Below, in pieces: positions 1 to 60,205 of a DNA stretch of 64,000 nt. The stretch is from Elusimicrobiaceae bacterium (GTDB lineage Bacteria > Elusimicrobiota > Elusimicrobia > Elusimicrobiales > Elusimicrobiaceae): assembly GCA_017528825.1 (NCBI GenBank), contig JAFXOI010000001.1, forward strand, positions 124,001 through 188,000. Reading direction: 5' to 3'. The notes under the pieces were generated by a model that saw nothing but the letters and a program-made list of their open reading frames with translations, had not been told where the DNA came from and ran no database searches. Positions within the stretch are counted from its first letter, which is position 1; every line of letters begins with the position of its first letter. The position numbers were made by a program, and so were the translations under genes.

Positions 1-218
1 CGCCCTCTAAAACAAACAGCCGTGGTTTGCCGTCACGATTGACGGCAAACACTCGGCACCACACTTCCAAGGGATCAGCTCGGACGTGTAGTGCCTAAAA
101 CGACTGTTTTTGGTGTGAATGGGCTGCCTTTCGACAGCGCCCCCTACGGGATTCCAAAAACAGATAAATTTAAGTAAGCCGGATTAGGGCTTTGTTAACT
201 CTTTTCTCCTGTTACTAC
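1..218 (-). ncRNA. Structured RNA copy A, 3' end cut by window edge
   Basis: Read on the minus strand this is one of three copies of a shared fold (others at 38397-38668 and 51380-51655). An extended -10 (TGG-TAATAT, 225-233) sets the 5' end near 218, and GGAG follows at about 206-209. Pairings seen: a small 5' hairpin (about 176-193); P1, 154-163 with 104-113; a GAAA-capped hairpin at 123-138; P4, 55-68 with 82-95, whose loop reads GAGCTGATCCC; P5, 25-34 with 41-50; and the first arm of a CGGCTGTT terminator stem at 16-22. The terminator and the gene behind it lie left of the window. Family and function are unknown; the strand is inferred from G-U wobbles and from the terminators of the other copies. 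Confidence 0.72.
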
Positions 219-23823: not shown

Positions 23824-23909
23824 TTTTATTCTCCTTTTAAACAGGCCTAAAACGCCCATAATACAACGTTTAATGACTCAGTGCCTTAAAAACAGCGGCG
23901 TCATAAAAA

Positions 23910-29782: not shown

Positions 29783-29826
29783 TTTAAGCCCAGTTGGCGC
29801 AGGGGTAGCGCGTTCCCTTGACATGG
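29783..29826 (+). repeat. attL: 44-base duplicate of tRNA-Val 5' half
   Basis: 44 bases identical to 36691-36734, running from five bases before the tRNA through the anticodon to ACATGG. After this the sequence diverges, so the crossover lies at the anticodon stem. It marks the left end of a ~6.9-kb element whose right end is the intact tRNA-Val. Confidence 0.82.
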
Positions 29827-29985: not shown

Positions 29986-30984
29986 TTACGCTTTACCTTG
30001 GGGCGTATTCATGCAAGCAATAACTTCTTTCAAGTATTCCGGGCTAAAGTGAGCATAGCGGTTGGTCATACGTGGCGTAGTGTGTCCTAAAATACCTTGT
30101 AAATTGGACATAGACCCGTTATGTACCCGGAATGTAGTAGCAAACGTATGCCGTAAGTCATGGAATGTTAGCCCTTTTAATCCGGCTTTGGCTTTAGCAC
30201 GCTTAAACGCACTTTCAAATGTACTTACTTTCATCGTAAAAACTCTACCGGACTTCTTTGCTCCGATTTCAGACAATACCGCTTGTAAATTGTTTGACAT
30301 AGGCACAATACGTTTTTTGCGTGTTTTAGATTGTAAGATATAAATAACACCCAACTCCATATCCACATTAGACCAATCAAGATCAAAGATTTCCCGTCTC
30401 CTCATACCGGAATGAAGAGCAAACCGCACAATTTGTTGAGCTTGTTTGTTTTTACAATACTGAAATAATTGTGTTAATTTATCATTACCCCAATATGACT
30501 CACGGTTATTATCTTCCGGCTTTTTAGCTACCACTATGCACGGGTTTTTACCGTTCCACAAATCGTGTTTGATACCAAACTCTATAACGGCTCCTAATAC
30601 CGCAAAATAACGGTTACATGTACTGCTCTTGTGTGTGTCAGCTAACTCATTATAAAATTGTTGCAATTTGGCACTGGTTAGATATTTCATTTTCACATTA
30701 CCCAACGTATTTTTTAACATCTTCCACATAGAATATGCCGAACGTCCCGGCAGTTCTTTTCCGTGAAGTTGCCAATAAGCGTCCGCTAGTTGTCCATACG
30801 TTACTTTTAAGGTGCGACGTTCCGGAAAGAAAACATCATCTTCTTTTTCTTTCATGAGGCGTGTGGCTACTTCTTCAGCATATTTCTTTGTACCATGTAT
30901 TTTCTTACGCCACCGCTTGCCTTCACTATCACGGAAGTCAATAAGATATACTTTGCCTTTTTCAATTTCCTTCACATGCTTCAT
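29986..30984 (-). CDS. Tyrosine integrase of the tRNA-Val element
   Basis: 332-aa site-specific recombinase. An N-terminal SAM-like core-binding domain covers about 60-150; the catalytic domain has Arg in ALHSGMRRREIFDL, HDLRHTFATTF (HxxR), and LGHTTPRMTNRYAHF with the nucleophilic Tyr. It sits next to attL with its 3' end toward the junction. Ribosome site AAGGTG precedes the ATG. Confidence 0.93.
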   Translation of the reverse strand: MKHVKEIEKGKVYLIDFRDSEGKRWRKKIHGTKKYAEEVATRLMKEKEDDVFFPERRTLKVTYGQLADAYWQLHGKELPGRSAYSMWKMLKNTLGNVKMKYLTSAKLQQFYNELADTHKSSTCNRYFAVLGAVIEFGIKHDLWNGKNPCIVVAKKPEDNNRESYWGNDKLTQLFQYCKNKQAQQIVRFALHSGMRRREIFDLDWSNVDMELGVIYILQSKTRKKRIVPMSNNLQAVLSEIGAKKSGRVFTMKVSTFESAFKRAKAKAGLKGLTFHDLRHTFATTFRVHNGSMSNLQGILGHTTPRMTNRYAHFSPEYLKEVIACMNTPQGKA

Positions 30985-36545: not shown

Positions 36546-36695
36546 AACTGTATCCAAAAACATTCATTTCCATTAAAGTACATTCAAACAAAAGCAACCT
36601 GAATCAATTTTGCTAAAAACACCACTCTGGCACTTATTTTCTGACGGAAAACTTTTATTATCGTGCTAGATTTTGTATAATAGTTTTAGATTTAA

Positions 36696-36770
36696 GCCCA
36701 GTTGGCGCAGGGGTAGCGCGTTCCCTTGACATGGGAAAGGTCATAGGTTCAAATCCTATACTGGGCACCA
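36696..36770 (+). tRNA. tRNA-Val (GAC)
   Basis: 75 bases with encoded CCA. Acceptor GCCCAGT/ACTGGGC, anticodon stem TTCCC/GGGAA, loop TTGACAT giving anticodon GAC, T-arm ATAGG-TTCAAAT-CCTAT. TATAAT lies 14 bases upstream. The 5' half and promoter are supplied by the integrated element, because the duplicate of this half remains at 29783-29826. Confidence 0.95.
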
Positions 36771-37300: not shown

Positions 37301-38365
37301 TTACATATTTATGCCATACTGCGTACTTATATTTTGCACTTGTGCCTCTACTTCAGCACAACGAGCTGACGAACAACGATGTTCATTTGGACAGGATGCC
37401 CCACCGCAACAACATGCGTTATCATTATAACTCACACCTGCACAACCATATCTATAATAAGTAGATTCTCCTGCATAACATACAGAGCCATTCGTAAACG
37501 TGCTATCGCATCCTCCATAAAAACTTGTAGTGACACAAATTGCATTATCAAAAGTATTATTTGCACAAGAGCTCTCATTTTTTGTGATACATACGGCTCC
37601 GTTTGCAAAGGAAGAATTTGTACAACCCGCTTTTGCCATGTCCCAACATACTCCCCCATCTTTAAATGAGGAATTATTACAAGAATTATAAATATAACCT
37701 TTACATATACCTCCTTCATTTACCTCGACGTTACTAGATGCTCCATATCCACAAAACGGCGTAGAATTGCCATATATACCATTGGCTTGATAGGGCATAG
37801 CTAATGCTGAACATCTTTCTTGGTCGGTTCTATAACATGTTCCATTTTTTTGCGAAAAGGCACGGCCAACATGATCACAAGTGGCCTTGTCTATAGCTTG
37901 GTCTAAAAGATACGCGGTGTAGCCCTCGGCACTAGTTAAATCTTGGCCTATAAGTAGCTTTCCGCAAAGTTTTTCGGCCCGTTCATCGCCTGTCTTAGCC
38001 TCACAATGCAGTTGCCCGGCAAATATTGGACTGTCGTTAAGGTAACTAGCCAGTCTTACATTAGCAAGCTTACTATTCGTAACCCGTATCACGTTGGGAT
38101 CTGCGGTATTATTGGGCGTTACTAAGGCAAAGGTTAAATCAGTATTATTCATAGTAACATCTAAATTAGCCATATTATCTGTATAAGCACCATTAGTCAT
38201 TTTAATGGCTTCTTCAGCATCTTTAATGGCCTTAGCTCCGGGGAGCATTGTGCTCCAATGGCTTTTATCCACCGCGCCCTGATACATGGGGATTGCAATA
38301 GCTGATAAAATACCAATAATCAGTACGACAACTAGCAATTCTACTAACGTAAATGCTTTGTGCAT
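37301..38365 (-). CDS. Type IV pilin-like protein with cysteine-rich repeats (paralogue)
   Basis: 354 aa. Prepilin leader MHK, then A-FTLVELLVVVLIIGILSA. About 170 residues are near-identical in layout to 22630-23823 (AIPMYQGAVDKSHWSTMLPG). The C-terminus has repeats such as SSFKDGGVCWD, SSFANGAVCITK, NTFDNAICVT, STFTNGSVCYA, roughly every 15-18 residues, then a CCCGGASCP cluster. This looks like a disulphide-rich solenoid. It has AAGGAAA before the ATG and lies 30 bases after the terminator of structured RNA B. Confidence 0.87.
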   Translation of the reverse strand: MHKAFTLVELLVVVLIIGILSAIAIPMYQGAVDKSHWSTMLPGAKAIKDAEEAIKMTNGAYTDNMANLDVTMNNTDLTFALVTPNNTADPNVIRVTNSKLANVRLASYLNDSPIFAGQLHCEAKTGDERAEKLCGKLLIGQDLTSAEGYTAYLLDQAIDKATCDHVGRAFSQKNGTCYRTDQERCSALAMPYQANGIYGNSTPFCGYGASSNVEVNEGGICKGYIYNSCNNSSFKDGGVCWDMAKAGCTNSSFANGAVCITKNESSCANNTFDNAICVTTSFYGGCDSTFTNGSVCYAGESTYYRYGCAGVSYNDNACCCGGASCPNEHRCSSARCAEVEAQVQNISTQYGINM

Positions 38366-38396
38366 AAGATTTCCTTTAAAATATTGGCCTGGGCAA

Positions 38397-38668
38397 AAGA
38401 AAACGGCTATTATGCCCAAGCGCGAATCAGTCACCTAGTCATAACAGCCGTAGTTTGCCGCGCCCGAAGGCGTGGCAAACATTCGGTACAACACAACGGG
38501 ATTATAAGTTCCATTGCGTTGTACCTAAAACAGCTGCTTTTGGACTGATTCGTGGCCTTTGGTTTCCCAAAAGCTATCCGTATTCTGCATACGGTTCCAA
38601 AAACAGATTAAAATTTATTCATAAGCGCAGTTTCTTGCGCGTAACTATCTATCCTCCTATAAAGGGAT
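38397..38668 (-). ncRNA. Structured RNA copy B, upstream of pilin gene
   Basis: Minus-strand transcript. -10 TGC-TATAAT (38675-38683); AGGAGG near 38652-38658; 5' hairpin GCGCA/TGCGC; P1 38597-38606 with 38534-38543; P2 CCGTAT/ATACGG; P3 38556-38573 with GAAA loop; P4 38485-38525; P5 GTTTGCC/GGCAAAC (38453-38480); terminator stem 38404-38450 with T-rich tail. The terminator loop segment 38422-38431 pairs with 38544-38553 over 10 bp. It ends 30 bases before the pilin ATG, so it may be a leader with attenuator or a separate RNA. Confidence 0.78.
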
Positions 38669-38699
38669 GTTGGTATTATAGCAAATCCCTATACGATAT

Positions 38700-46588: not shown

Positions 46589-46712
46589 TTAGGTCTTTAG
46601 ACCTAAAAAAGAGTGGGGCTAAAAAACACTTGATATTGGGATTGTGTTTTTAAGATACTGTAAGTGTAGTAGATTAATCAGTTCGCTGAGCGCAAGCCAC
46701 CAGCGGATCTCA
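46589..46712 (+). promoter_or_regulatory. Conserved promoter and leader of HxYYF member 4
   Basis: Perfect palindrome TTAGGTCTTTAGACCTAA (46589-46606), GGGCTAAAAAAC half-site, TTGATA (46630-46635), 18-base spacer, GATACT (46654-46659), then leader hairpin 46681-46708 with GTTCGCTG pairing to CAGCGGAT and a GCAA cap (46692-46695), then AAGGAG. Same order as at 16023, 17231 and 18055. Confidence 0.75.
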
Positions 46713-46723
46713 AGGAGAAATAT

Positions 46724-47445: not shown

Positions 47446-47523
47446 GGTGGATGTAGCTCAGCTGGTTAGAGCGCCGGTCTGTGGAACCGGAGGTCGCGGG
47501 TTCAAATCTCGTCATCCACCCCA
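47446..47523 (+). tRNA. tRNA-His (GTG)
   Basis: Acceptor GTGGATG/CATCCAC, with G-1 at 47446 opposite C73 as required for His. Anticodon stem CCGGT/ACCGG, loop CTGTGGA giving GTG. CCA is encoded (47521-47523). It is the left boundary of the second island: the serine recombinase gene runs into its 3' end. Confidence 0.95.
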
Positions 47524-49050
47524 TATTAAACCCCTAGAACTTTTAAGTTCTGGGGATTTATTATGTAGTAGTTCCGTCGGAACTGCGCTTGTTTCCAAGC
47601 GCAATTCCTTTTCCTTTGCTTCGGCTATAAAGTTAAACGGCATCCGATACTGCGTTTGAATGTCGTTGTGCTCATCCAATACGAAGTTTTCCCCCAACAT
47701 ACGCACAATTTTGGCTTTGTCAAAATTATCCGCTTTCCGGAATAATGTACCTAAATTAGATACAATTTCCAGCGTTTCTTCGCTCTTCTGAACGATTGTG
47801 GCCGGATCTGTGCCTATAGCTTGAAGTGCTTGCTGAATACGAGCTATTTCCGCATTTATCTCCTGTTCCTTGCGGTTCCACATCTCTTGGCTGCCAGTAC
47901 CTTCCAAACGCAAATCATACAGCTTGCTGAGCTTGGTTTCGGCATGTTTCAGTTCTGTTTCCAAGGTGGTTCTCTGGTGGTTTTTTACGGATTCGGCTTG
48001 CTTTGCCATCTCTGCAATACCTTCTTTCAACCAAGTAACAGTTTCAGCAGGTAACACAATTTTATCCACAACACTTTCAAACTTGGCTGCGAGGTCATCT
48101 TCCAATAAATAACCAGCGTGCTTATGCTGTCCTTTGGAAAAGCTGCATCGGTAGTAAGTGTATTTTCCTTTGGCTATTTGCCCCAGAATCGTACAATCAC
48201 AATGTCCGCACCGAAGCAAACCCTTAAAAGCGAAGCTCTGTTTGGTTTTATACGGCCGATGATTGCCGGATAACTTAGCATTGGCCTGATCCCAAAGCGT
48301 TTTACTTACGAGCGGTGTATGGTTTCCCTGGTATCGTTTCTTTCCCCAATCAAATTCTCCGTAGTAGAACGGATTTTTGAGAATGCGGTACAAGGTACTT
48401 TTCCGGACTTTGGTGTTACGTGTCTTATGTCTAAGCCCCAACACAAACATCTGGTCTTCCAAAGCAATTAGGGAATACGCTCCACTGGCTACCTTCTCAA
48501 ACATCATTTTGACAAGAGGAGCATTGACTGGATCAATTTCCACTTCACCTTCTTTATTTAAGTAACCCAACGGCGTATTAGAAGGGTAAATACCACTCTC
48601 GGCTTTCTCATCCATGCCCATTTTCGTTTTACGAGATATATCATTTGACATTTTTTTGGCCACAGCCACTTCAATGTCCAGCATGAACTCGTCGTCAGGG
48701 TTGGAATCCTTGTTGTACACCTTATTGGTACGGCTGAAATGAATGGTCTTGCCATATTCGTTTATCAGTTCCTTGATCTTGATCTTGTCAAAATCATTAC
48801 GCGTCATCCGGTCTAAAATATCAAAGATCACGTGCTTAACTTCCGAATGTTTTTTGGCATAATCCAACATCTGAATGAACCTGCAACGTTTCTTTTTACC
48901 CCAGGCAGATTCTGATCCGCGCCAGGTACGAACTATTTCTAAATTATGTTTCTGGGCATACTCTTTACCGAGCTTTTCTTGGGCATCTAGCGAATAGCCA
49001 TCTTCTTGGCCTTTGCTGGACACCCTTAAATACAATACGGCTTTCTCCAT
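47512..49050 (-). CDS. Large serine recombinase at tRNA-His
   Basis: 512 aa. Resolvase domain starts AVLYLRVSSKGQEDGYSLDAQ with the nucleophilic Ser near 11; recombinase domain (about 160-265); zinc ribbon (LLRCGHCDCTILGQ with a later Cys); coiled-coil (about 350-420). The last residues IWGG and the stop are encoded by the complement of the tRNA-His acceptor end, so this is the form of the gene after integration. Probable integrase of the island. Confidence 0.92.
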   Translation of the reverse strand: MEKAVLYLRVSSKGQEDGYSLDAQEKLGKEYAQKHNLEIVRTWRGSESAWGKKKRCRFIQMLDYAKKHSEVKHVIFDILDRMTRNDFDKIKIKELINEYGKTIHFSRTNKVYNKDSNPDDEFMLDIEVAVAKKMSNDISRKTKMGMDEKAESGIYPSNTPLGYLNKEGEVEIDPVNAPLVKMMFEKVASGAYSLIALEDQMFVLGLRHKTRNTKVRKSTLYRILKNPFYYGEFDWGKKRYQGNHTPLVSKTLWDQANAKLSGNHRPYKTKQSFAFKGLLRCGHCDCTILGQIAKGKYTYYRCSFSKGQHKHAGYLLEDDLAAKFESVVDKIVLPAETVTWLKEGIAEMAKQAESVKNHQRTTLETELKHAETKLSKLYDLRLEGTGSQEMWNRKEQEINAEIARIQQALQAIGTDPATIVQKSEETLEIVSNLGTLFRKADNFDKAKIVRMLGENFVLDEHNDIQTQYRMPFNFIAEAKEKELRLETSAVPTELLHNKSPELKSSRGLIWGG

Positions 49051-49051
49051 C

Positions 49052-49234
49052 TTAACTTTCCTTTGCGTTTAGCAGCTTCTCTATATGGTACTGCTGCATT
49101 TTGTTTGGCACGGTCTTATCGTTAAACCAACGATTAACTGTAACAAATGACACGCCTAACATTTCGGCTAGCTTGGCTTGTGAAATCCTTCTCTCTAATC
49201 TAAACTTTTCCAACTCATCTATAAGTGGCATCAT
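49052..49234 (-). CDS. Small XRE-type HTH regulator
   Basis: 60 aa, RISQAKLAEMLGVSFVTVNRW is a full helix-turn-helix, then WFNDKTVPNKMQQYHIEKLL. Located one base before the recombinase gene on the same strand, so it probably controls it. It could start one codon later (MPLID). Confidence 0.85.
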   Translation of the reverse strand: MMPLIDELEKFRLERRISQAKLAEMLGVSFVTVNRWFNDKTVPNKMQQYHIEKLLNAKES

Positions 49235-49247
49235 ATATCATATTATA

Positions 49248-50336
49248 TCATTTATTATCTCCTTTTTTTAGTTGTTCTACAATAGAAGGAAGCAGTTGCG
49301 TAAGCTGTTCAATCACACTGACTTCCTTTTGTCGTCCGTCTATATTCTTCAAAACGGATATCAGTTCCGCTGGTTGGTAGTTACCATAAACGTTCAATGT
49401 AGTGGCCACTTCTTCATGACCAAAATTTTGGCTCACGGCCTTGATTTCTTTTCCATTCTGTGCTTTGCTTATAGCTAACTGAATGGCAAGGTGTCGGTAC
49501 AAATGGGGATGAAAGTATTTTAATCCGGCTTCTTCGGCACGTTGCTTCACTACACGCTGGATGTTAGTTCCATCCTTCCAAAACACGGGTTCCACTTCTA
49601 GGGCATCTTGGAAGCTCAGATTGCCTTCTTCTTTGCGGTTCTTGGAGCGTGGAAACATCGGATCCGTACCTACAAAACCGCGCTTATACAAATAGGCCAC
49701 CCAATCCAGCACATACTGCGCCATTTGTTCATCAAAGCGGAACATTTTGGAATAGATACGTTTGGTAAATTTGGTTTTTACACCGTCTTCCGGATTCTGA
49801 TCCACCAGTAGGGTGTTTGCATCAAACGCTTTTAAGGATAAAGTGGCCACTGCTGAATCACGCATTCCTGTCAGGCACAGGAACGAAATCAGAGCACGAT
49901 CCCGCTGATCCACTTCTGTAAGTGGCTGAATAGATTCCACCAGCTGCCTAACATCTTCCAAAGTCGGGATATGTTCTAGCTTTCCGGTTCTTAAAAGTTG
50001 CTTTTCTTTATGGGAAAGGTTTAAATAGTCCACCGCATCCCGCTGGATTTTGCTCTTATACCCAGGTTGCCATGAAAGCCACTCAAAGAACTGTTTCATC
50101 TGCTTGATGCAGTTTGCATGAGTTGTTTTGGCTAACTTTTGAGCTTGCAAATACACCTTGAAATCAATGGCCTTCTGGGCATTGAATGTTTTGTAATCAG
50201 CGTGTTTGGTAAAGGCGTCGTACCTGGCAAGTGCTCTGCGAGCTACTTTAATACTGTCATCACCCAAACCTTTGGAATGGGTTAGATAGGTTTCATATTT
50301 ACGTTTCATTTGTTCGTTTATGCTATTGTAAGTCAT
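49248..50336 (-). CDS. Tyrosine recombinase, XerC/D-like
   Basis: 362 aa. N-terminal SAM-like core-binding domain (about 10-105). Catalytic region: LTGMRDSAVATL (Arg), HPHLYRHLAIQ (HxxRH), FGHEEVATTLNVYGNY (His and Tyr). Start at 50336 after AGGAG. Having both recombinase types in one operon is unusual; one may handle excision or multimer resolution. Confidence 0.88.
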   Translation of the reverse strand: MTYNSINEQMKRKYETYLTHSKGLGDDSIKVARRALARYDAFTKHADYKTFNAQKAIDFKVYLQAQKLAKTTHANCIKQMKQFFEWLSWQPGYKSKIQRDAVDYLNLSHKEKQLLRTGKLEHIPTLEDVRQLVESIQPLTEVDQRDRALISFLCLTGMRDSAVATLSLKAFDANTLLVDQNPEDGVKTKFTKRIYSKMFRFDEQMAQYVLDWVAYLYKRGFVGTDPMFPRSKNRKEEGNLSFQDALEVEPVFWKDGTNIQRVVKQRAEEAGLKYFHPHLYRHLAIQLAISKAQNGKEIKAVSQNFGHEEVATTLNVYGNYQPAELISVLKNIDGRQKEVSVIEQLTQLLPSIVEQLKKGDNK

Positions 50337-50414
50337 GGTTTTTCTCCTGGTTTCTAATTTCATTATACTGACAGCATTTCACTAACGATCCATGCTGCAC
50401 ACTAATACTTAATG

Positions 50415-50870
50415 TCATATGGTATTCTCCTGTATTGTTTTTTGGTTTTCGGACTGATACTGCTTCATGATTTCCAACACTTCCGGTGTTTTAGTAGAAC
50501 CGACACGGCTTATTTCGTTGCCACACGTTTCACATTTTCCTACAATTTGGAACTGCTGGTATTGGCCCATTTTCTTGTGGCTTGGTACGATCCGGACACA
50601 ACCAGACACGCTTCGTTTGGGAGCATGGCAATGCATGCAAAAGAATTCATTCGGTTGTAGCGGTTGTTTCTGTGCCTTGCGTTGCTGAAACAAATACGTC
50701 TTCACTTCTTCCCCCTTAAACAGTAAAGGGAACGTGTCCGGCAACGCGGGCAGTCCATCTCTATGCCATGCTTGTACCGTACGCACATGTACCTTCAAAG
50801 TATCTGCTAACTCTTGGGAAGTATAAGTTTTGTCCTTCTTAATCAAATGTATAGGCACTTTCTTACGCAT
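50415..50870 (-). CDS. HTH protein with zinc ribbon
   Basis: 151 aa. N-terminal excisionase/MerR-like HTH (YTSQELADTLKVHVRTVQAW), then a four-Cys zinc ribbon: CMHCHAP and CETCGNE about 45 residues apart. DNA-binding regulator or directionality factor of the island; exact family unknown. Confidence 0.7.
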   Translation of the reverse strand: MRKKVPIHLIKKDKTYTSQELADTLKVHVRTVQAWHRDGLPALPDTFPLLFKGEEVKTYLFQQRKAQKQPLQPNEFFCMHCHAPKRSVSGCVRIVPSHKKMGQYQQFQIVGKCETCGNEISRVGSTKTPEVLEIMKQYQSENQKTIQENTI

Positions 50871-51081
50871 ATTTTATCCTCAACTGACGTAACAACATTT
50901 CTAAACCGATCATATTTCTGGCAATCTGGGCACACTCTTCATCACTCAAATCTCTACCAGCAAGCGGCTGAAACAGCTGTCTTGTCTTATCTAAAAACTC
51001 TTCGCTGAATGAAGTTAAATTTTCAGCGGAGTACGTCTGATCTTTACTCATCTTGTATAGTAGGCAAAGGTTATAATTCAT
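50863..51081 (-). CDS. Small hypothetical protein
   Basis: 72 aa, or 62 aa if it starts at MSKDQT. Helical and acidic (GRDLSDEECAQIARNMIGLEMLLRQL). It overlaps the HTH gene by eight bases, which supports it as a real coding sequence. No family recognised. Confidence 0.55.
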   Translation of the reverse strand: MNYNLCLLYKMSKDQTYSAENLTSFSEEFLDKTRQLFQPLAGRDLSDEECAQIARNMIGLEMLLRQLRIKYA

Positions 51082-51270
51082 GTTTTGAAGGCCACTGACA
51101 GTATTTCAATGGCACAACACGGAACCTTCTACCTTCCTATAATCAACCTAAGTGTTCAAAAAAATCCCCCACCGTCGGAGAAATGTCCTTTTTTCAAAAA
51201 CACCAAAGACCTGTTTTTGCGCCTTTTAAGGAGGTTGTAAGCATTTAACTGGTGTCTTGAACTGATTTTT

Positions 51271-51298
51271 ACCCCTCTATATTCAATCCATCTGTTCT
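51271..51298 (+). repeat. Copy of the element-1 origin-type motif
   Basis: ACCCCTCTATATTCAATCC followed by ATCTGTTCT closely matches 32847-32874 in the other island (most positions identical). The 300 bases between 51082 and 51380 show no gene; this motif and the promoter of structured RNA C are the only signals. Confidence 0.45.
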
Positions 51299-51379
51299 AA
51301 ATGATTTTTTTGGCCTACAAAACACAACCAAACATGGGAATTTATACGCATCTGGGTACAGGTTTGCTAAAATGGAAGT

Positions 51380-51655
51380 ATCACATTAAATTTGCAAAGG
51401 AGATAAAACAGAACAGCCCGAACTGGGCATAAACTTTTTTACTGTTTTTGGGATCCTGCTGGAAGAGTAGGATAGCTATTGGGAAACCAATATCTAAGCT
51501 CACCAAAACAGCCAATTTAAGCATAGACACTGAGAGCTGATCCCTTTCGGTGCTTATGCCGAAAATGCTTCTTGCCGTCTGCAAAGACGGCAAGGGGTTA
51601 CGGCTGTTTATATCCGGGGCTGAGCTTAGACCTGGACGTAATACAGCCGTTTTTA
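51380..51655 (+). ncRNA. Structured RNA copy C, upstream of restriction operon
   Basis: -10 TGC-TAAAAT at 51365-51373; GGAG 51399-51402 with no start codon behind it; 5' hairpin GCCC/GGGC (51416-51428); P1 51442-51451 with 51503-51511; P2 ATCCT/AGGAT (51453-51473); P3 TATTGG-GAAA-CCAATA (51477-51492); P4 51521-51533 with 51547-51559 and loop GAGCTGATCCCTT; P5 51571-51594; terminator 51601-51649 plus T5. The terminator loop 51621-51630 is an exact complement of 51493-51502. It ends 47 bases before the methylase ATG. Confidence 0.8.
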
Positions 51656-51701
51656 TATCCCCAAGCTGTCCGCTTTTCCTTTGGATTCCGCCCATATATT
51701 T

Positions 51702-52358
51702 ATGACGGAACGAAAGGAACAACAAATCAAAAGCGAGAAACGCGTGGCCGACTTTGGCGAAGTGCTCACCGCACGCCGTGAAGTGGAAGCCATGCTGGAC
51801 CTGGTCAAAAATGAATCGGAACGCATAGACAGCCGCTTCTTGGAGCCCGCATGCGGCACGGGGAACTTCCTTACTGCCATATTGGAACGCAAGCTCAAAA
51901 CTTTACGGGCACGCTACCGCACTAAACGGGCCGACTTTGAAGCCCAACTGCTCTCCGCCTTAGGCAGCATCTACGGCATTGACTTATTAGAAGACAACGT
52001 CAAAGAATCCCGCCAACGCCTTTTTGATATGGCCGTACAGTGCTACAAAGATTCCCTGCGTAAGAAACCCGATGAAGCATTTCAAAACATCATCCGCTTT
52101 GTACTAAGTAAGAACATTCTGCAAGGTGATTCATTAAACGGAATAGACAAAATCACGTTCACCCAGTGGACACTGCTCGGCTACCGATTTAATAGGGAAG
52201 AGTACGCTTTCCAAGCATTAAACAATAAACCGGAAGACGGACTGGACTTGTTCGGCACGTCTTCCTTAAACGAAAAACAGCAACCCGTGTACATTCCGCA
52301 AGCTGTTAAACGTTACCCGCCTGTACATTACCGCAAATTATTGGAGGAAACTAAATGA
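51702..52358 (+). CDS. N6-adenine methylase, SAM-binding half
   Basis: 218 aa. RVADFGEVLTARREVEAMLDLV and FLEPACGTGNFLTAIL (motif I) are those of Eco57I/type I-like adenine methylases; YGIDLLEDN is the next SAM contact. The catalytic NPPY motif is absent, though the following gene has its own motif I and NPPY. Probably a subunit or a reduced methylase. ATG 51702 fits the family N-terminus (MTERKEQQ) better than the upstream TTG. Overlaps the next gene by four bases. Confidence 0.78.
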   Translation: MTERKEQQIKSEKRVADFGEVLTARREVEAMLDLVKNESERIDSRFLEPACGTGNFLTAILERKLKTLRARYRTKRADFEAQLLSALGSIYGIDLLEDNVKESRQRLFDMAVQCYKDSLRKKPDEAFQNIIRFVLSKNILQGDSLNGIDKITFTQWTLLGYRFNREEYAFQALNNKPEDGLDLFGTSSLNEKQQPVYIPQAVKRYPPVHYRKLLEETK

Positions 52359-53905
52359 CGTTCTTAAAAGAATTGCACAAGCCGGACATTTTGGACTGCA
52401 TTGCCCACTTGTCTTCCGACGAAGTATTCACACCACCCAAGCTGGTAAATGAAATGCTGGATATGCTTCCGCCCGAACTGTTCCGAAGTACGGAAACAAA
52501 GTTTTTGGATCCTGGTTGCAAATCCGGCGTGTTCCTGCGGGAAATTGCCAAACGCTTGATTGAAGGCGAAAAAGAACTCATTCCCGACCTGGAAAAGCGG
52601 ATCCGGCACATCTTTACAAACCAATTGTACGGGCTGGCTATTACGGAGCTGACAGGGCTTTTGGCACGGCGTTCCACTTACTGTTCCAAGAAAGCAGATG
52701 GGGAATACTCCATTTGTACATTTAGCACACCGGACGGCAACATTGACTATACTCGCACGGAACACGTCTGGGAAAACGGCAAATGCACCTTATGCGGGGC
52801 CAGCCAAAGCCAGTACGACCGTGGCGACATTTTAGAAACCCACGCATACAGTTTTATTCACTGCGACGAAGAACACAACAAAACAGTTTTCAAGAGGTTA
52901 AAAGATATGAAATTTGACGTAATTATCGGCAATCCGCCGTATCAACTAAGTGATGGTGGAGCACAAGCAAGTGCCAGCCCGATTTATCAGTTATTTGTAG
53001 AACAAGCCAAACGACTAAACCCGCGGTATCTAACCATGATTATACCTTCCCGCTGGATGACTGGGGGCAAAGGATTGGATGCTTTCCGAAGCACGATGAT
53101 TCATGATAAACATTTCAAAACATTACACGATTTTGCAGATTCAAATGAGTGTTTCAGAGGGGTAGATATTAAAGGTGGTGTGTGTTATTTCTTGTGGACA
53201 CGCGATTCTGAACAAAAGTGCGACATTTACCGACATGATATAAACGGTGTTAGCCATTCAAAACGCTACTTGGTAGAAGAAGGAGATGACATTTTTATCC
53301 GGTGTAATCAACTTATTCCCATCAAAGATAAAGTCCAAGCCAAACAAGAAGAAAGTTTTATGAGTTTGGTATCAGCCATGAAACCTTATGGACTACGCGG
53401 AGATGTATTTGAACACCCAATCAAATATGACTTGCCAAAAATGGGGTGCAGAAGAATTAAAGACGGATACGAAGTTGTGGGATTATGCCACCTAAGACGA
53501 GAATCACGTTTTATTCCGCCCGATTATCCCATCCCACAACGTAATATGCTCCATGATTATAAAATTTTTATGACACGCAATTATGGATGTGGCGAGATAG
53601 GAGAAGTACCAGCCACGCCAGTCCTGGCCACGCCAGGAATGTTATGCACCGAAACATTCATTCAGATTGGGCCCTTCAAAACCCAAAAGGAAATGGAGAA
53701 CTGTTTTAGTTATATTAAAACCAAATTCTTCCGTTGCATGGTAGGTATTAGAAAACAGGACCAAGGAGCTGGAAGGGCTGTTTATAAATATGTGCCAATG
53801 CAAGATTTTAGCGAACCGTGGACGGATGCCAAGTTATACAAAAAGTACGGACTGACGAAGGACGAAATCAACTTTATAGAGTCCATGATTAAGCCGATGG
53901 AATAG
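52355..53905 (+). CDS. Eco57I-type adenine-N6 DNA methylase
   Basis: 516 aa. Motif I LDPGCKSGVFLREIA, catalytic motif IV FDVIIGNPPYQLSDGG, with a Cys4-like insert between (YCSKKADGEYSIC; GKCTLCGAS) that may bind zinc. The C-terminal half is a specificity region. Translationally coupled to the gene before and ten bases from the helicase. Confidence 0.88.
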   Translation: MTFLKELHKPDILDCIAHLSSDEVFTPPKLVNEMLDMLPPELFRSTETKFLDPGCKSGVFLREIAKRLIEGEKELIPDLEKRIRHIFTNQLYGLAITELTGLLARRSTYCSKKADGEYSICTFSTPDGNIDYTRTEHVWENGKCTLCGASQSQYDRGDILETHAYSFIHCDEEHNKTVFKRLKDMKFDVIIGNPPYQLSDGGAQASASPIYQLFVEQAKRLNPRYLTMIIPSRWMTGGKGLDAFRSTMIHDKHFKTLHDFADSNECFRGVDIKGGVCYFLWTRDSEQKCDIYRHDINGVSHSKRYLVEEGDDIFIRCNQLIPIKDKVQAKQEESFMSLVSAMKPYGLRGDVFEHPIKYDLPKMGCRRIKDGYEVVGLCHLRRESRFIPPDYPIPQRNMLHDYKIFMTRNYGCGEIGEVPATPVLATPGMLCTETFIQIGPFKTQKEMENCFSYIKTKFFRCMVGIRKQDQGAGRAVYKYVPMQDFSEPWTDAKLYKKYGLTKDEINFIESMIKPME

Positions 53906-53914
53906 GAGAACCCC

Positions 53915-56440
53915 ATGCCCGAATTATTGAACAGCCACAAGATTCCACAAATATATGTCTATACGGAACCGCAATATAAGACCGCCGACTGGGAAGGCAA
54001 ACGCAATGGCCGTGGGTTCCTAAAAATTGGATTCACTACCGGCAATGTAGTGGACCGGATCCGACAACAATTCCCTACCCATAAACCCGTGGATAACCCC
54101 TTTGAAGTGCTATTGGAAGACGTTGCCATCCGCAAAGACGGCACGTTCTTTACTGATAAGGATGTGCACCGCATCCTGCGTAAAAACGGGGCAGAAGAAC
54201 GCACCACGCAAGGCAAGCATACAGAATGGTTTGAATGTACGTTGGAAGAGGTGGAACAGGCCATCTTTGCCGTTAAAAACCACAAAACCACTATCACCGA
54301 ACGCCGGATGGATTTTGCCATGCGGCCCGAACAAGCCCAAGCGGTCAAAGTTACTAGCGAATACTTCAAAAACTTTTCCTATGAGCGGGAACACAAAACA
54401 CCGCACTTCCTGTGGAACGCCAAAATGCGGTTTGGCAAAACATTTACCGCGTACCAATTAGCCAAAGAGATGGGCTGGAAAAAGGTGCTGGTGCTTACAT
54501 TTAAGCCAGCGGTGCAAAATTCGTGGGAATCGGATCTAGTCAGCCATGTGGATTTCAAGGACTGGCAATTCGTTTCCCGTACCGGAACACAATATAATGA
54601 AATAGATCCCAAGAAGCCGTTTGTGTGGTTTGCCAGCTTCCAAGACGTACTGCAAAAAACGGATGCGGGCGGTATTAAACCGCGTAATGAAGAGATTCAC
54701 TGTATAAACTGGGATTGCATTATACTGGACGAATACCACTTTGGGGCCTGGCGTGAAAACGCAAAGGATCTGTACGATGCCGAAGACAAAGCAGAACAGA
54801 AAAAACAAGACGGCGACGGCTTGGAATACTACGATGAAGAGCAGATGCCACTAACCACCAGTGCTTATTTGTACCTGTCCGGCACGCCGTTCCGTGCGTT
54901 AAACAACGGTGAGTTTTTAGAAGACCAAATCTTCAACTGGACTTATACCGACGAACAACGCGAGAAAAACAACTGGGATCCCAAACAAGGAGAAAACCCG
55001 TACTTGGAGCTTCCCCAAATGGTGATGATGACCTACCAAATGCCGGAAGAAATACGTTCCATTGCCTTGCTGGGTGAGTATAACGAATTTGACCTGAACG
55101 AGTTTTTCAAAGCAAAAGAAGAAGGTTCCGTGTGTAAATTTGTGCACGAAGCAGAAGTGGCCGACTGGCTAAATTTGATCCGTGGTCAATACAAACCCAC
55201 CACCTTAGATGAACTGAAAATCGGCAAGAAACCGCCGATGCCATATTCCGACGTGCGTTTGCTCAGTGCCCTAAGCCATACATTTTGGTTTTTGCCGTCC
55301 GTGGCCAGCTGCAAAGCAATGGGTACGTTACTAAGCAAGCATCCGGTTTATAAAGAATATAAGGTGATTGTCTGTGCCGGAAATGAAGCCGGAATGGGCG
55401 TGGATGCCCTGGAACCTGTCCGGCGTGCCATCGGCAAAGGGTTTGACACAAAAACGATCACGCTCTCCTGTGGGAAACTTACCACAGGTGTAACAGTGCC
55501 GGAATGGGGCGGGATTTTTATGCTGCGTAATACGTCCAGCCCAGAAACTTATTTTCAATCGGCCTTCCGTGTGCAATCTCCCTGGACGGTTAAAAATCCG
55601 GACGGAACGAACCCAAATGAAAAAGGTATTGTGAAAGATACCTGTTATGTGTTTGACTTCGCACCGGATCGGGCATTGAGCCAGATTGCCGAATACAGTG
55701 CACGCTTAAACGCAAACAGTAAGGAATCGCCGGAAAAGCGTGTGGAAGAGTTTATCAACTTCCTGCCCGTGCTCTGTTATGACGGCAGCACTATGGAACT
55801 AATCAACGCCAGCGAGCTGCTGGACTTGGTTATCTCCGGCACGGCATCTTCCATGCTGGCACGGCGTTGGCAAAGTGCCTTACTTGTAAATGTGGACAAC
55901 CCGACCTTGCTCAAACTGATGGAAAACGACAAGGCCATGGATGCTTTATCTCGCATTGAAGGGTTCCGTAATTTGAATAAGGACATCACAACGCTAGTGA
56001 ACAAGTCCGAAGCACTTAAAAAAGCTAAGCAAGAGAACAAAGAAGAACTTTCAAAGAAAGAAAAGAAGGAACTAACACAAGAAGAAAAAGAAATTAAATC
56101 CAAACGAAAAGAGATACAAGAAAAGCTACTCAAATTCGCAACTAGGATCCCCGTGTTTATGTATTTGACGGACTACCGCGAACAAACCTTGCAAGACGTA
56201 ATCACCCAGCTGGAACCGGAACTCTTCCAGAAGGTAACGGGCTTAACAATACCGGACTTTGAACTGCTGGTCAATATAGGCATCTTTAACGAGCAGATCA
56301 TGAACTCGGCCGTGTTTGCGTTCCGGCGTTATGAGGAAGCCAGCTTGTCCTATACTGGGCTGACCAAGCACCAAGAACTGCTGATTGGTGGTTTTAACAC
56401 AAAGATAGAGCGTACGGAATGGGAAAACATGGGGATGTAA
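53915..56440 (+). CDS. GIY-YIG nuclease fused to SF2 helicase
   Basis: 841 aa. N-terminal T5orf172/GIY-YIG-like domain (about 8-125: IYVYTEPQ, FLKIGFTTGNVVDRIRQQ, WFECTLEEVE). Helicase: Walker A in NAKMRFGKTFTAYQLA (about 167-182), DEYH box ILDEYHFGAW, later motifs SCGKLTTGVTVPEWGG and QSAFRVQSPW. This is the restriction part of the operon, cutting through the GIY-YIG domain after translocation. A Lys/Glu-rich stretch lies near 700-740. Confidence 0.85.
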   Translation: MPELLNSHKIPQIYVYTEPQYKTADWEGKRNGRGFLKIGFTTGNVVDRIRQQFPTHKPVDNPFEVLLEDVAIRKDGTFFTDKDVHRILRKNGAEERTTQGKHTEWFECTLEEVEQAIFAVKNHKTTITERRMDFAMRPEQAQAVKVTSEYFKNFSYEREHKTPHFLWNAKMRFGKTFTAYQLAKEMGWKKVLVLTFKPAVQNSWESDLVSHVDFKDWQFVSRTGTQYNEIDPKKPFVWFASFQDVLQKTDAGGIKPRNEEIHCINWDCIILDEYHFGAWRENAKDLYDAEDKAEQKKQDGDGLEYYDEEQMPLTTSAYLYLSGTPFRALNNGEFLEDQIFNWTYTDEQREKNNWDPKQGENPYLELPQMVMMTYQMPEEIRSIALLGEYNEFDLNEFFKAKEEGSVCKFVHEAEVADWLNLIRGQYKPTTLDELKIGKKPPMPYSDVRLLSALSHTFWFLPSVASCKAMGTLLSKHPVYKEYKVIVCAGNEAGMGVDALEPVRRAIGKGFDTKTITLSCGKLTTGVTVPEWGGIFMLRNTSSPETYFQSAFRVQSPWTVKNPDGTNPNEKGIVKDTCYVFDFAPDRALSQIAEYSARLNANSKESPEKRVEEFINFLPVLCYDGSTMELINASELLDLVISGTASSMLARRWQSALLVNVDNPTLLKLMENDKAMDALSRIEGFRNLNKDITTLVNKSEALKKAKQENKEELSKKEKKELTQEEKEIKSKRKEIQEKLLKFATRIPVFMYLTDYREQTLQDVITQLEPELFQKVTGLTIPDFELLVNIGIFNEQIMNSAVFAFRRYEEASLSYTGLTKHQELLIGGFNTKIERTEWENMGM

Positions 56441-56463
56441 AACACGCCTATTCTTTCGCGATT

Positions 56464-56496
56464 AGCCACCAAACACATACCTGTTTGGTGGCTTTT
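56464..56496 (+). terminator. Terminator of restriction operon
   Basis: AGCCACCAAACA/TGTTTGGTGGCT, 12 bp, followed by T5. Confidence 0.9.
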
Positions 56497-56503
56497 TACT
56501 TAA

Positions 56504-56588
56504 ATAAACAGAAAATACGTTTATATTGACTTTTTATTTGCTTTTATGCTATGCTATTAGTACAAAGATAAACAGAAAATATGTTTAT
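56504..56588 (+). promoter_or_regulatory. Promoter flanked by twin palindromic operators
   Basis: Two 21-base sites differ at one base (56504-56524 and 56568-56588) and are each inverted repeats ATAAAC...GTTTAT. Between them lie TTGACT (56526-56531) and TATGCT (56550-56555), 18 bases apart. One site touches the -35, the other covers the start region, as in repressor loops. Ribosome site GGAGG at 56595-56599. Confidence 0.7.
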
Positions 56589-56604
56589 TTAACGGAGGAG
56601 CTAA

Positions 56605-57879
56605 ATGTTTAAGTCATTTAAGGTTGTGAATTTCAAATCAATTTTGGAAACAACAGTGCCGCTAACCTATATGGAAAAGAAGGCACCCAATGGCTATAAA
56701 GAAAAAGAAACGATTCCCTTTTTAGAAGCTGGAAGAGATAGAGTCGTACCGCTTTTGATGCTTTTCGGCGCAAACGCTTCGGGTAAAACAAACCTTGTTG
56801 CTGCGTTTTCTTGTTATCTTCATATATTGCGGGAAGGTATCAAAGGAAAATTTATTCCAAACAAACTAAACAAAAAATACAATACTACTACCTTTGAGTT
56901 GAATTTTATCTGGAAGGGAGCGGAGTACACACACTTTATTGAGTACGATCAAACACACATTATTAAAGAAAAATTTACCCGCCAAAAGAAGGTGCTGTTT
57001 GAAATACAAGGCCATAAATTCGTAACACAAACCATTGAAACAAAAGGATACGGGCTAACGGAATTTAACAATATTCTTTCCGTGGAATGTTCAGAAGGAG
57101 ATATGCAAATCCACTCTTTCTTAACCAAACTAACCGGACGACTTCCAGGTCTTGATCAAAACATCTCTGGGGCATGTCAATACTTGATTATAGATACGCG
57201 AGTAATTACTCTTGGAAATACATTGCATCCTTCCATGATATTTGATGCGTTCAAAGGTTTGGGTATATCTTTTGACGAGGCCTTTGCCGAAATAACCCAC
57301 ATTCTCCAACTTCTGGATCTGACAATCACACGTTTAGAGCTGATTCAAGAAGAAAAAACGATTCCGTTTTTGCCACCAGTAACGGTAGCTCCCGCATCGT
57401 TTTATGTTGAAAAAGAATCGCACCAACTCAAACAGCGGTTAGATCGTATCATTTCGTTCCACAAGGACATTGAAGGAAAAGAAATCCCTTTTGAGTTTTT
57501 CCAAGAAGAATCGCAGGGAACAATCCGCTTATTTTCTATTATCGGCACCTTTATTTTAGCCATCAAAAGAGGCGGCGTCCTTATTTGGGATGAATTGGAT
57601 GCTTCGTTGCACCCTTGTTTGTTAAAAGAATTATTACAGATGTTCAAATCCAAACGGTATAATACAATGAATGCCCAACTAATTACATCTTTACATGATC
57701 CCTACATATTGGAAGATGAAAATGTGCGGGTATCTGATATTGCGGTTATTAACAACACTGTTTCCAAAGGCACTACTCTCACCCGTGTTGTTGATTTTGA
57801 CAATGCCAGAAACGATGTCAATTTTCGTAAGCAATACTTAGAAGGGCATTACAGAGGGATTCCAAACGCTTACTTATGA
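56605..57879 (+). CDS. AAA ATPase of abortive-infection type (AbiL/RloA-like)
   Basis: 424 aa. FKSFKVVNFKSI start, Walker A FGANASGKTNLV (about 54-65), ABC-like signature region, Walker B GGVLIWDELDASLHP (about 322-336) and a switch histidine in SLHDPYIL. This is the AAA_15/AAA_21 class found in phage-defence pairs. Overlaps its partner by ATGA. Confidence 0.83.
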   Translation: MFKSFKVVNFKSILETTVPLTYMEKKAPNGYKEKETIPFLEAGRDRVVPLLMLFGANASGKTNLVAAFSCYLHILREGIKGKFIPNKLNKKYNTTTFELNFIWKGAEYTHFIEYDQTHIIKEKFTRQKKVLFEIQGHKFVTQTIETKGYGLTEFNNILSVECSEGDMQIHSFLTKLTGRLPGLDQNISGACQYLIIDTRVITLGNTLHPSMIFDAFKGLGISFDEAFAEITHILQLLDLTITRLELIQEEKTIPFLPPVTVAPASFYVEKESHQLKQRLDRIISFHKDIEGKEIPFEFFQEESQGTIRLFSIIGTFILAIKRGGVLIWDELDASLHPCLLKELLQMFKSKRYNTMNAQLITSLHDPYILEDENVRVSDIAVINNTVSKGTTLTRVVDFDNARNDVNFRKQYLEGHYRGIPNAYL

Positions 57880-58469
57880 CACAACAAATCAAAAATATCT
57901 ATATTGTGGTTGAAGGTAGCTCAGAAAAATCTTTTTTTACCAAGCTGAACTCCTATTGTTCGCGCATGGATATTCCGGTGAGTTTCAAAATAGAAAATGC
58001 CGAAGGCCACACCTTGAAGAAAGTGTTGGATGCTGTCAAAAAGGCGGGTAAGAAAATTAAAAAGGACCTCGGCGGAGTATTAACAACAGATGTAATGGTA
58101 TTTTTAGATTATGATGTTTTCAAACGTGGAGAGGACATAGCACCTTATAATGCCAGATTAAAACGCTTATACTTCTTTGAGTACAGCTTTGAAGATTTCC
58201 TCGTTTCTCTGTTACCCACCGAAGAAAGCCAAAAATGGAAACGGATATGTGAAGAACAAGGGCATTACCAAAGCCCAATGAATGCCACAGCTGTGGAATC
58301 ACACATCAAAGCCATATTCCCTCATTACCGAAAAGGAGATTGCCCCCTGTACGAAATTACCGAAGAACATGTGCGAAGGATGCCCACGACTAATTTTCAT
58401 GAAGATATTCAACACGCTGAGTTATTGCTACTCCGATATGTTCTTCCCCCTGTAACCCCTAAGCATTAA
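57876..58469 (+). CDS. RloB-like partner protein
   Basis: 197 aa. IYIVVEGSSEKSFFTKLNSY, VMVFLDYDVFKRGEDI with an acidic DxD, and C-terminal His/Cys residues fit the RloB/AbiLii family, which has a TOPRIM-like core. With the ATPase it forms a two-gene defence unit; phage specificity unknown. Confidence 0.8.
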   Translation: MTQQIKNIYIVVEGSSEKSFFTKLNSYCSRMDIPVSFKIENAEGHTLKKVLDAVKKAGKKIKKDLGGVLTTDVMVFLDYDVFKRGEDIAPYNARLKRLYFFEYSFEDFLVSLLPTEESQKWKRICEEQGHYQSPMNATAVESHIKAIFPHYRKGDCPLYEITEEHVRRMPTTNFHEDIQHAELLLLRYVLPPVTPKH

Positions 58470-58536
58470 AATCCCCTGGGATTTAGCAGTTTTTGAGCAG
58501 TGCCAGCGTGCATAAGACATGTGTTTCTTGGCATTG

Positions 58537-58582
58537 AAAATCCGCCAAATTACCGATTTTTGAAAGCAAGTTGGCGGATTTT
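58537..58582 (+). terminator. Terminator-like hairpin after RloB gene
   Basis: Perfect 12-bp stem AAAATCCGCCAA/TTGGCGGATTTT with a 22-base loop. It can end the defence operon. A TATAAT (58585-58590) right after it faces the 3' end of the next recombinase gene, with no clear gene behind it. Confidence 0.65.
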
Positions 58583-58594
58583 GTTATAATATAC

Positions 58595-60205
58595 TCATAG
58601 TAGTCGGAGTTCGGATTTATAAACAGGGATGCTGTAAAGCCCAAATGCAAAGTAGTTATACATTTCGTGCAATAAAGTACCCCATACGCAATACTTAGAC
58701 CCTTCGGCCACGAAACTGAAGGGTTTTTTCATTATAATTTCAATACTTTTTCCTTTCATTAAGAGGTTCGCAAATAAAAGGTTCAAAATCTTACGTTTCT
58801 GCAAATTCTGCGAACCTGCATAGAGTTCCGGCAAACGTGAAAGCAGGTTTACAGCACGTGCCAACGTCCACGCTACCTGTTTGGAAGGTTTCTGCTTACC
58901 GGACAGCTTAGCTTGCAGACTCTTTTCTTCCTCTGCCAGAGCTTGCAGCTTTTCATTAACTGTTTGACTGGGAAGAAGTCCTGCTGCTTCCTTCTGTATC
59001 CAGACTTCCTTCTCTTTGGCAATCTGGCCTAACCGCCGCTGTGCGTTAGCTAATTCTGTCTGTTGAGCTTTCTCCTGCGTGTTCAGTTTACCAATCAGCT
59101 GAGCCAGTACACCTTTCAGCAAAGCAGGTGGAACTTGAATTGCTTTGAGTGTTTCCATAACCGCTTTAGTAGCTACTTCTTCACGGATTTCCCCACAAGA
59201 ACACTCCTTGTTATTTGCTTTGCCAGCACAGCGTAAATAAACGTAGTGGTGTTCTCCGTTGTTTGTTTTATTCTTCTTGTATCTGTGGTAACTGGAAATG
59301 TACGATTCACAATCAGCACATTTTATCATCCGTTTGAAAGTGAAAGGCAGTTTATCGTACCGGAGTGGTTGTTTATTAAAACCTTCACGTACCTGTTGAC
59401 ATTTGTCAAACAACTGTTTAGAGATGAGAGGACCGTAACTATGTGGTCTCAAAGCTCCCTTTACGTTCATTATGCCATAGTAAAACGGATTAGTAAGTGT
59501 TCGTTGCATACTGGCTGCATTAAATGGTACACCTCTACAGCTGATAAGTCCAGCCTTCTTAAAATCCCTAGATGCTTGCTCCAGTGAATAATTACCTGTA
59601 GCGTAATCTTGAAAAAACTTTTGAACCAGTGGTGCTGCTACTGGGTCAATGATGATTGTTTTCTTACCGTTCTGCTCTACGTTTTTATAACCGACCGGAG
59701 CTTTACATGGCCATTCGCCTTTCTCAATCTTGCGAGCTATTCCCTTTCGGGTATGGACCTTGATGGCATTGATGTAAGCCCGTGCACCCATTACGTTCAC
59801 ATCCCAGACAAGAGCATTATTGAAGTAGTTTTCCGAATTGATTACTAAATTAGATTGCACAAAGTGTAGTTCCATTTGGCTTGCTAAAATGAAAGGTTCA
59901 CAAGCTACAGTTTCATTAAAACGACGTTGGAAACGGTCCACAGTGTGTGCAATTACAGCGGTACATCCCTTTTGCTGGGATACGAATTGTATCATCTTAT
60001 TAAACTCTTTACGTGCTCCTTGGGTAGATGATTCCACAATTTGATATTCCTTTACAACCTGCAAGTTATTCTGTGTTGCGTATTTACGGCACATTTCAGT
60101 TTGAGCATCTAAAGAGTATCCATCCTCTTGACTCCGGCTTGATACTCTGGCTAAGATAACCGCTTTTGTGGCGGTCAGTTTAGTATTTTGATTGTTATTT
60201 GTCAT
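58595..60205 (-). CDS. Second large serine recombinase
   Basis: 536 aa. Resolvase domain AVILARVSSRSQEDGYSLDAQ with Ser near 22; recombinase domain (about 165-270); zinc ribbon MIKCADCESYISS; coiled-coil (about 370-430). It is diverged from the 47512-49050 protein. The last ~30 residues after KPFSFVAEGS look like read-through into target DNA, as at tRNA-His, which hints at a second nested element. Confidence 0.9.
   Translation of the reverse strand: MTNNNQNTKLTATKAVILARVSSRSQEDGYSLDAQTEMCRKYATQNNLQVVKEYQIVESSTQGARKEFNKMIQFVSQQKGCTAVIAHTVDRFQRRFNETVACEPFILASQMELHFVQSNLVINSENYFNNALVWDVNVMGARAYINAIKVHTRKGIARKIEKGEWPCKAPVGYKNVEQNGKKTIIIDPVAAPLVQKFFQDYATGNYSLEQASRDFKKAGLISCRGVPFNAASMQRTLTNPFYYGIMNVKGALRPHSYGPLISKQLFDKCQQVREGFNKQPLRYDKLPFTFKRMIKCADCESYISSYHRYKKNKTNNGEHHYVYLRCAGKANNKECSCGEIREEVATKAVMETLKAIQVPPALLKGVLAQLIGKLNTQEKAQQTELANAQRRLGQIAKEKEVWIQKEAAGLLPSQTVNEKLQALAEEEKSLQAKLSGKQKPSKQVAWTLARAVNLLSRLPELYAGSQNLQKRKILNLLFANLLMKGKSIEIIMKKPFSFVAEGSKYCVWGTLLHEMYNYFAFGLYSIPVYKSELRLL

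Follow-up and report, generated by a model that had tools for sequence, protein, structure and literature searches.

A candidate class of leader RNAs, mainly of pilin-like genes, in gut Elusimicrobiota with the predicted anatomy of a transcription attenuator

Three copies of a structured RNA in the window

The window analysed here is a stretch of 64,000 nt from an Elusimicrobiaceae bacterium (assembly GCA_017528825.1, contig JAFXOI010000001.1, positions 124,001 to 188,000; genome G000 in the following), and it contains three copies of one structured RNA (Table 1). Copy C is located upstream of a restriction-modification operon that starts with a split methyltransferase gene and is followed by an AbiL-like pair. 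The sequence-only reading had placed the end of a structured RNA 47 nt before the ATG of the methylase gene, without an obvious promoter in between, and these coordinates are correct: the U-run ends at 51654 and the ATG starts at 51702. The predicted fold of copy C has an energy of -104.7 kcal/mol, as opposed to -70.1 ± 4.7 kcal/mol for dinucleotide shuffles (z -7.4; core z -7.6). A consensus promoter scan of positions 51200-51800 revealed no full sigma-70 consensus and was also negative for the 47 nt after copy C, in which a clear Shine-Dalgarno sequence was not found. The putative promoter stretch TTTGCTAAAAT occupies the position that TTTGCTATAAT / TTTGTTATACT have 5′ of other copies; it also matches a promoter-like sequence ahead of another gene in four genomes. 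Copy C is among the most diverged members of the RNA class and is 98.9 % identical to its counterpart in genome G031. Besides the restriction-modification operon and the AbiL-like AAA/RloB pair, the island in which it sits (47512-60205) encodes a tyrosine integrase and two large serine recombinases. In a comparison of loci L001 and L002 from two genomes (window 49860-53200), the pattern of identity was mosaic and broke where the leader RNA has its 3′ end.

Copy B, on the reverse strand, is the best match to the covariance model and precedes a gene for a type IV pilin-like protein; the distance of about 30 bases given for it earlier was measured as 29 nt. B and C have clearly diverged, yet all helices are common to both. 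Copy A is the only third covariance-model match within the window (C1:124089-124171 on the contig); most of its terminator and the gene that it precedes (DUF4422 plus glycosyltransferase 8) are located just past the window start. The pilin gene at 22630-23859 and the hairpin near 24272 had been considered as copy A and were rejected, as this is not the same RNA.

Table 1 Features of the three RNA copies and their flanking genes (positions in the window)
Feature	Positions	Strand	Basis or remark
Putative promoter of copy C, TTTGCTAAAAT	51363..51373	+	-10-like TAAAAT, 51368-51373
Copy C, whole leader RNA	51375..51654	+	Fold z, covariance-model match; start predicted at about 51380
P0, variable 5′ hairpin GCCC/GGGC	51416..51428	+	Fold; present in only some copies
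P1 5′ strand, CTGTTTTTGG	51442..51451	+	Copy comparison; almost invariant between copies
P1a hairpin	51453..51473	+	GNRNA pentaloop in most copies
P1b hairpin, ATTGG-GAAA-CCAAT	51478..51491	+	GNRA loop
pk5, first lock strand, TCTAAGCTCA	51493..51502	+	10/10 complementary to pk3
P1 3′ strand, CCAAAACAG plus CC	51503..51513	+	Partner: P1 5′ strand
AAACAGCC within P1 3′ strand	51506-51513	+	Alternative partner: terminator 5′ arm (predicted antiterminator)
P2 hairpin	51516..51566	+	Palindromic apical loop GATC, 51539-51542
P3 hairpin	51567..51598	+	Fold
P4, terminator stem, ACGGCTGTT..ATACAGCCG	51600..51649	+	
pk3 in P4 loop, TGAGCTTAGA	51621-51630	+	
Terminator U-run, TTTTT	51650..51654	+	Sequence
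47-nt spacer to ATG	51655..51701	+	No promoter motif
Split methyltransferase, N-terminal part (MmeI-like, Type II/IIG)	51702..52358	+	Pfam, PADLOC
Eco57I-type methylase	52355..53905	+	Pfam, E 8e-38
Restriction subunit, T5orf172 (GIY-YIG type) plus ResIII helicase	53915..56440	+	Pfam, PADLOC
-10 box of copy B, TATAAT	38675..38680	-	Sequence
Copy B, whole leader RNA	38395..38668	-	Fold z -9.6; best covariance-model match
pk5 of copy B, CGAATCAGT	38544..38552	-	Matching pk3 at 38423-38432
29-nt spacer of copy B	38366..38394	-	Sequence; contains AAAGGA
Type IV pilin-like gene (N_methyl) after copy B	37301..38365	-	Pfam; ATG at 38365
Copy A, 5′ part of third leader	1..212	-	Covariance-model match, 89-171

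Distribution of the RNA and the genes that it precedes

Diverged homologues with the helices of B and C were found in relatives by DNA search. A covariance model was built from B and its homologues with C left out, and it matched C at E 1.5e-10. The model was limited to the P1 domain because MAFFT alignment of full-length copies misplaced the helices; in one row (L009x), used for the seed only, a single loop base was removed to keep it in frame. At E below 1e-3 it detects 46 copies in the 1.53-Mb genome G000. The RNA is present in genera g1 and g15 of family f1, with 61 of the 66 genomes of the genus, two of which carry at least 63 copies each, and all 18 listed genomes of the sister genus, and in 14 genomes of a second family (f21), while 248 of 340 genomes of the phylum had no match. 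When 85,000 named species genomes were scanned with a pattern, every matching record bore a title beginning with Elusimicrobi- (from rumen, horse, yak and others) or the title "uncultured bacterium", and no viral contig matched the pattern. Matches to the antisense strand of P1, which a loose scan also returned, were filtered out. Only tRNAs and chance matches were obtained with the 4227 Rfam families at gathering and permissive thresholds, and a literature search, mostly covering papers accessible without subscription, returned no paper that describes this RNA or reports control by leaders in Elusimicrobiota. As judged from these comparisons, it is a previously undescribed RNA class, chiefly a leader of pilin-like genes in gut Elusimicrobiota. 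It would be a new leader class with unusually many paralogues for a genome of this size. Contigs C15 and C16 of G000 both end in one and the same leader copy (positions 41-137); assemblies thus break inside leaders, and the copy number may be underestimated.

According to the sequence-only reading, it would be unusual for one RNA class to control a defence operon as well as a surface protein. One class does precede genes of both kinds, and over a broader range. In G000, 38 of the 46 copies are followed by a type IV pilin-like gene on the same strand, such a gene lies upstream or on the other strand in three, and most remaining copies precede another co-directional gene. The genome contains 114 genes with the N_methyl motif (the type IV pilin N-terminal motif), so that one third of the pilin-like genes are led by the RNA. 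Two leaderless pilin-like genes examined in the window have a TTGAC-type promoter near the gene. Other led genes, in G000 and related genomes, encode glycosyltransferases of families 2, 8 and 9, DUF4422 proteins, outer-membrane beta-barrel proteins, lipoproteins, sulfatase-fold membrane enzymes, YrbL and a HAD hydrolase. Several kinds of restriction-modification-type genes are also led, namely, those for an EcoRI-type methylase (in about five loci), an N6_N4 methylase, SNF2/ResIII and PLD-SNF2 helicases and the split methylase after copy C. The leader would in this way tie together genes for meeting the host and phages: pili, surface sugars, outer-membrane proteins and restriction-modification.

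The gap from the U-run to the ATG measures 27-45 nt in nine of ten pilin copies, and the Shine-Dalgarno sequence lies inside it. A TATA[ACT]T box is located upstream of the RNA in 71 % of the copies and within the gap in 3 %, which leaves no room for a separate promoter of the gene. A stand-alone small RNA acting in trans from an incidental location, the alternative raised earlier, would fit the presence of a promoter and a terminator of its own. A possible target for the P1 5′ strand could also be pointed out, since a spacer stretch complementary to it (like UUUUCCAAAAACAG, matching the P1 3′ strand) occurs before 41 % of the genes, as opposed to 2 % after shuffling. Such a reading is nevertheless very improbable given the co-directional genes, 38 of the 46 copies preceding one gene family at a fixed spacing, and the promoterless gap, although terminated transcripts could still act in trans in addition. 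Position and gene set point to a cis-acting leader rather than a bystander, and the leader reading is thereby supported at the level of sequence. The spacer complement precedes 49 % of the pilin genes, directly before the Shine-Dalgarno sequence; B and C are without it. As the P1 5′ strand would be free in antiterminated RNA, it could pair with this stretch and influence translation, which is offered as a lead only. A leader peptide was considered and rejected: one copy has an ATG after AGGAGG, and the others are without it.

Leaders of the same genome have a similarity of 55-82 % to each other, which does not track that of the pilins behind them (Mantel r 0.003). Leaders and genes seem to have been shuffled against each other, although saturation of the RNA sequence may mask some correlation. 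At the C locus, G000 and G031 share 98-100 % identity between about 50960 and the point where the RNA ends; past it, the identity is mostly 82-95 %. This fall in identity right at the RNA end, the lack of correlation with the pilins and the 46 dispersed copies would all suit a recombination site or mobile DNA element spreading to positions before genes, with the RNA fold as a secondary feature. Covariation and terminator anatomy are, however, RNA features, the RNA has a fixed orientation and distance relative to the gene, no associated protein gene was seen and the pattern is absent from viral contigs, so that a mobile element is hardly probable at all.

Helices, lock and alternative folds

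The closing helix P1 (CUGUUUUUGGA/UCCAAAAACAG) encloses the hairpins P1a and P1b and is followed by P2, P3 and the terminator P4. The P1a loop is a GNRNA pentaloop in 81 of 142 copies, and that of P1b is mostly GNRA. The P1, P1a and P1b helices show strong covariation, with 346 double-changed cells as opposed to 80 ± 8 in shuffles, and a covariation score of 0.44, as opposed to 0.16 after shuffling and 0.04-0.10 when slid. Changes in P1 mostly give G-U on the 3′ strand, the 5′ strand being almost invariant. A stem with a U-run is present in the 153 copies that were segmented; one automatic terminator caller placed a few copies wrongly.

The P1 3′ strand and its neighbours, pk5-UCCAAAAACAGYCG, are complementary to the closing helix P1 and also to the terminator 5′ arm and loop, CGGCUGUU-N-UUUGGGU-pk3. 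Since one strand has two partners, the terminator fold and the predicted antiterminator fold are mutually exclusive. The pk5/pk3 pair forms a lock of 9-10 bp with a cognate score of at least 7 in 96 % of the 153 copies, as opposed to 3 % for non-cognate combinations. There are 118 different lock sequences among the copies, and all 42 compared within G000 differ from each other. Active avoidance of cross-talk between locks of one genome was not seen, non-cognate pairing being close to chance. Of 131 distinct copies, 128 can form 7-8 of the 8 pairs of the antiterminator core AACAGYCG/CGGCUGUU, and the UCCAAA complement (UUUGGG) is present in the terminator arm in 58 %, as opposed to 10 % after shuffling. 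Non-cognate strands come close to cognate ones in core pairing (7.7 and 7.8 of 8, respectively). With so little variation in the core, covariation of the antiterminator is seen in the lock and in a few divergent copies. Three of the latter, with helices partly lined up by hand, have changed in both partners: C22:6588 (AACAGUCGC/GCGACUGUU, 9/9), L260 (AAAUAAUCG/CGAUUAUUU, 9/9) and L266 (AAAUAGUCAU/AUGGCUAUUU, 10/10). In second-family copies, for which the anchors were chosen without use of the antiterminator, the mean antiterminator score was 7.3, as opposed to 4.3 in shuffles and 6.9 for non-cognate strands.

When each copy was folded under constraint, the terminator state was the more stable one by an average of 3.8 kcal/mol (sd 4.7), out of about -90 kcal/mol, in a comparison that leaves out pseudoknot energy and kinetics. 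In 132 of 149 copies, the fold with P1 and terminator had the lower energy of the two. This preference would fit a leader with a static fold and leaky read-through, in which there would be no antiterminator and pk5/pk3 would make a tertiary contact within the terminated form; the lock can also be interpreted as a pseudoknot that connects P1 with the terminator loop. For a static pseudoknot, however, the extra in-register complementarity beside the lock (AACAGYCG/CGGCUGUU and UCCAAA/UUUGGG) would be needless, and the divergent copies retain it by paired changes. A static fold is therefore improbable. Comparison among the copies shows that the RNA is placed as a leader, and it bears out every helix, the two pairings that exclude each other and the copy-specific lock; an alternative antiterminator predicted to exclude the terminator is kept by covariation.

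Proposed switch and related systems

The anatomy deduced from these sequences is that of an on/off switch read during transcription of the gene. The RNA is most probably, at roughly three chances in four, a cis-acting 5′ leader working as a transcription attenuator with a terminator/antiterminator switch. Transcription would start at the promoter upstream of the RNA and, at 27-45 nt from the gene, would run into the intrinsic terminator. At an early stage, strand UCCAAAAACAG would close helix P1. The emerging terminator 5′ arm could then invade P1 via the toehold YCG and pair with the UCCAAAAACAG strand, upon which pk3 would lock the arm onto pk5. The resulting antiterminator would consist of about 8 bp (AACAGYCG/CGGCUGUU), often UCCAAA/UUUGGG, plus the 9-10-bp lock; once formed, it would exclude the terminator and the gene would be read. 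With P1 held shut, the terminator would form and the gene would be off. P1 with P1a and P1b is the likely sensor, and a metabolite, a protein or dimerisation via the palindromic P2 loop are candidate inputs. We infer the direction of control, the co-transcriptional order of these steps and the existence of an input. The model leads to point-by-point predictions for lock, toehold and palindrome, and the copy-specific, self-matching lock would offer a natural data set of dozens of paralogous RNA switches in one cell.

A palindrome of at least 4 nt was found in the P2 apical loop of 93 % of the copies (34 % after shuffling) and in 81 % of unique loops (33 % after shuffling); 62 % of the copies have a 6-nt palindrome, as opposed to 4.5 % after shuffling. 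Palindromes occur in 1-5 % of the control loops P3, P1a and P1b. The P2 loops contain 15 different palindromes, and such wholesale exchange is what selection for loop-loop self-pairing predicts. HIV-1 DIS is a dimerising RNA with a palindromic kissing loop. P2 resembles it in loop size (9-10 nt), in the 6-nt palindrome of about half of the loops and in the self-complementary apical loop that characterises kissing-loop dimers. In contrast to DIS, many different palindromes occur across paralogues of one bacterial leader, and dimerisation is predicted from sequence; the loops suggest that the leaders form kissing dimers.

A variant of the attenuator is a switch without input, in which two near-equal states would act as a stochastic contingency switch of surface and restriction genes. 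The states are near-balanced in energy, and pili, glycosyltransferases, outer-membrane proteins and methylases are the usual phase-variable kinds. The recurrent P1a pentaloop, the P1b GNRA loop and the palindromic P2 loop exceed the needs of a coin flip, however, and this variant is conceivable but rather unlikely. It is distinctly unlikely, too, that some 40 paralogous leaders with their own locks form an RNA-encoded contingency system with individual gene switching without DNA rearrangement and with dimerisation reporting the amount of leader. If so, pilins, glycosyltransferases and restriction-modification genes would each be switched by a leader of their own.

The attenuator has several counterparts among known systems. 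In strand-exchange riboswitches, an upstream domain is closed by P1, and the 3′ strand of this helix also forms part of an antiterminator, which is incompatible with the intrinsic terminator. RfaH/ops, LoaP and EAR-type antitermination control surface-polysaccharide, pilus and similar genes after the start of transcription. The leader described here would share this control of surface genes after transcription start, and its P1a GNRNA pentaloop resembles lambda boxB; in contrast to those systems, the terminator belongs to the RNA itself. A NusG paralogue was rejected as antitermination factor, as at most one NusG gene was present per genome tested, without a difference between genomes. The layout of P1, antiterminator and terminator is common to the leader and strand-exchange riboswitches such as the yxjA purine riboswitch (PMC9756952). 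Unlike transcriptional riboswitches, the leader has no known ligand or aptamer, occurs in tens of copies per genome, carries copy-specific locks and has no Rfam match. The set of led genes does not point to a candidate ligand. In C. difficile, c-di-GMP (GEMM) riboswitches are located upstream of type IV pilus genes (PMC6200980), so that a leader RNA before type IV pilin genes is found in both cases. Leader size, helices and terminator arrangement differ, however, and the GEMM Rfam model gave no match at the gathering score in the window and 20 further loci. GGDEF genes are present in tested genomes with and without the RNA, and c-di-GMP may therefore be available. T-boxes are likewise long leaders with mutually exclusive terminator and antiterminator, but the genes led here are unrelated to amino acids, and the T-box Rfam model had no match in the window or the further loci. 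A type III toxin-antitoxin RNA (ToxI) was rejected: the RNA contains no tandem repeat, and the led genes are those for pilins, glycosyltransferases and methylases.

Other repeats were noticed beside the leaders. Short repeated insertions, e.g. ATGCTGAGCAAAGACGACTCAGCATGACG, are present in G000 at C1:93137, C5:80281, C3:63091, C25:30670 and other positions, where they either separate the leader from the pilin motif or fall within the N-terminus of the pilin. A separate conserved leader-like repeat of 77-129 nt, up to 84 % alike and with a GGTCTTTAGACC-like palindrome, lies upstream of small secreted proteins (MKKLM...) at 16089-16165, 17291-17367, 18114-18190 and 46590-46718 (reverse complement) of the window. 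A region of about 6.9 kb that contains an integrase (29986-30984) is bordered on both sides by an exact 44-nt repeat (29783-29826 and 36691-36734), which covers a tRNA gene in part, and the two repeats look like the attachment sites of an integrated element.
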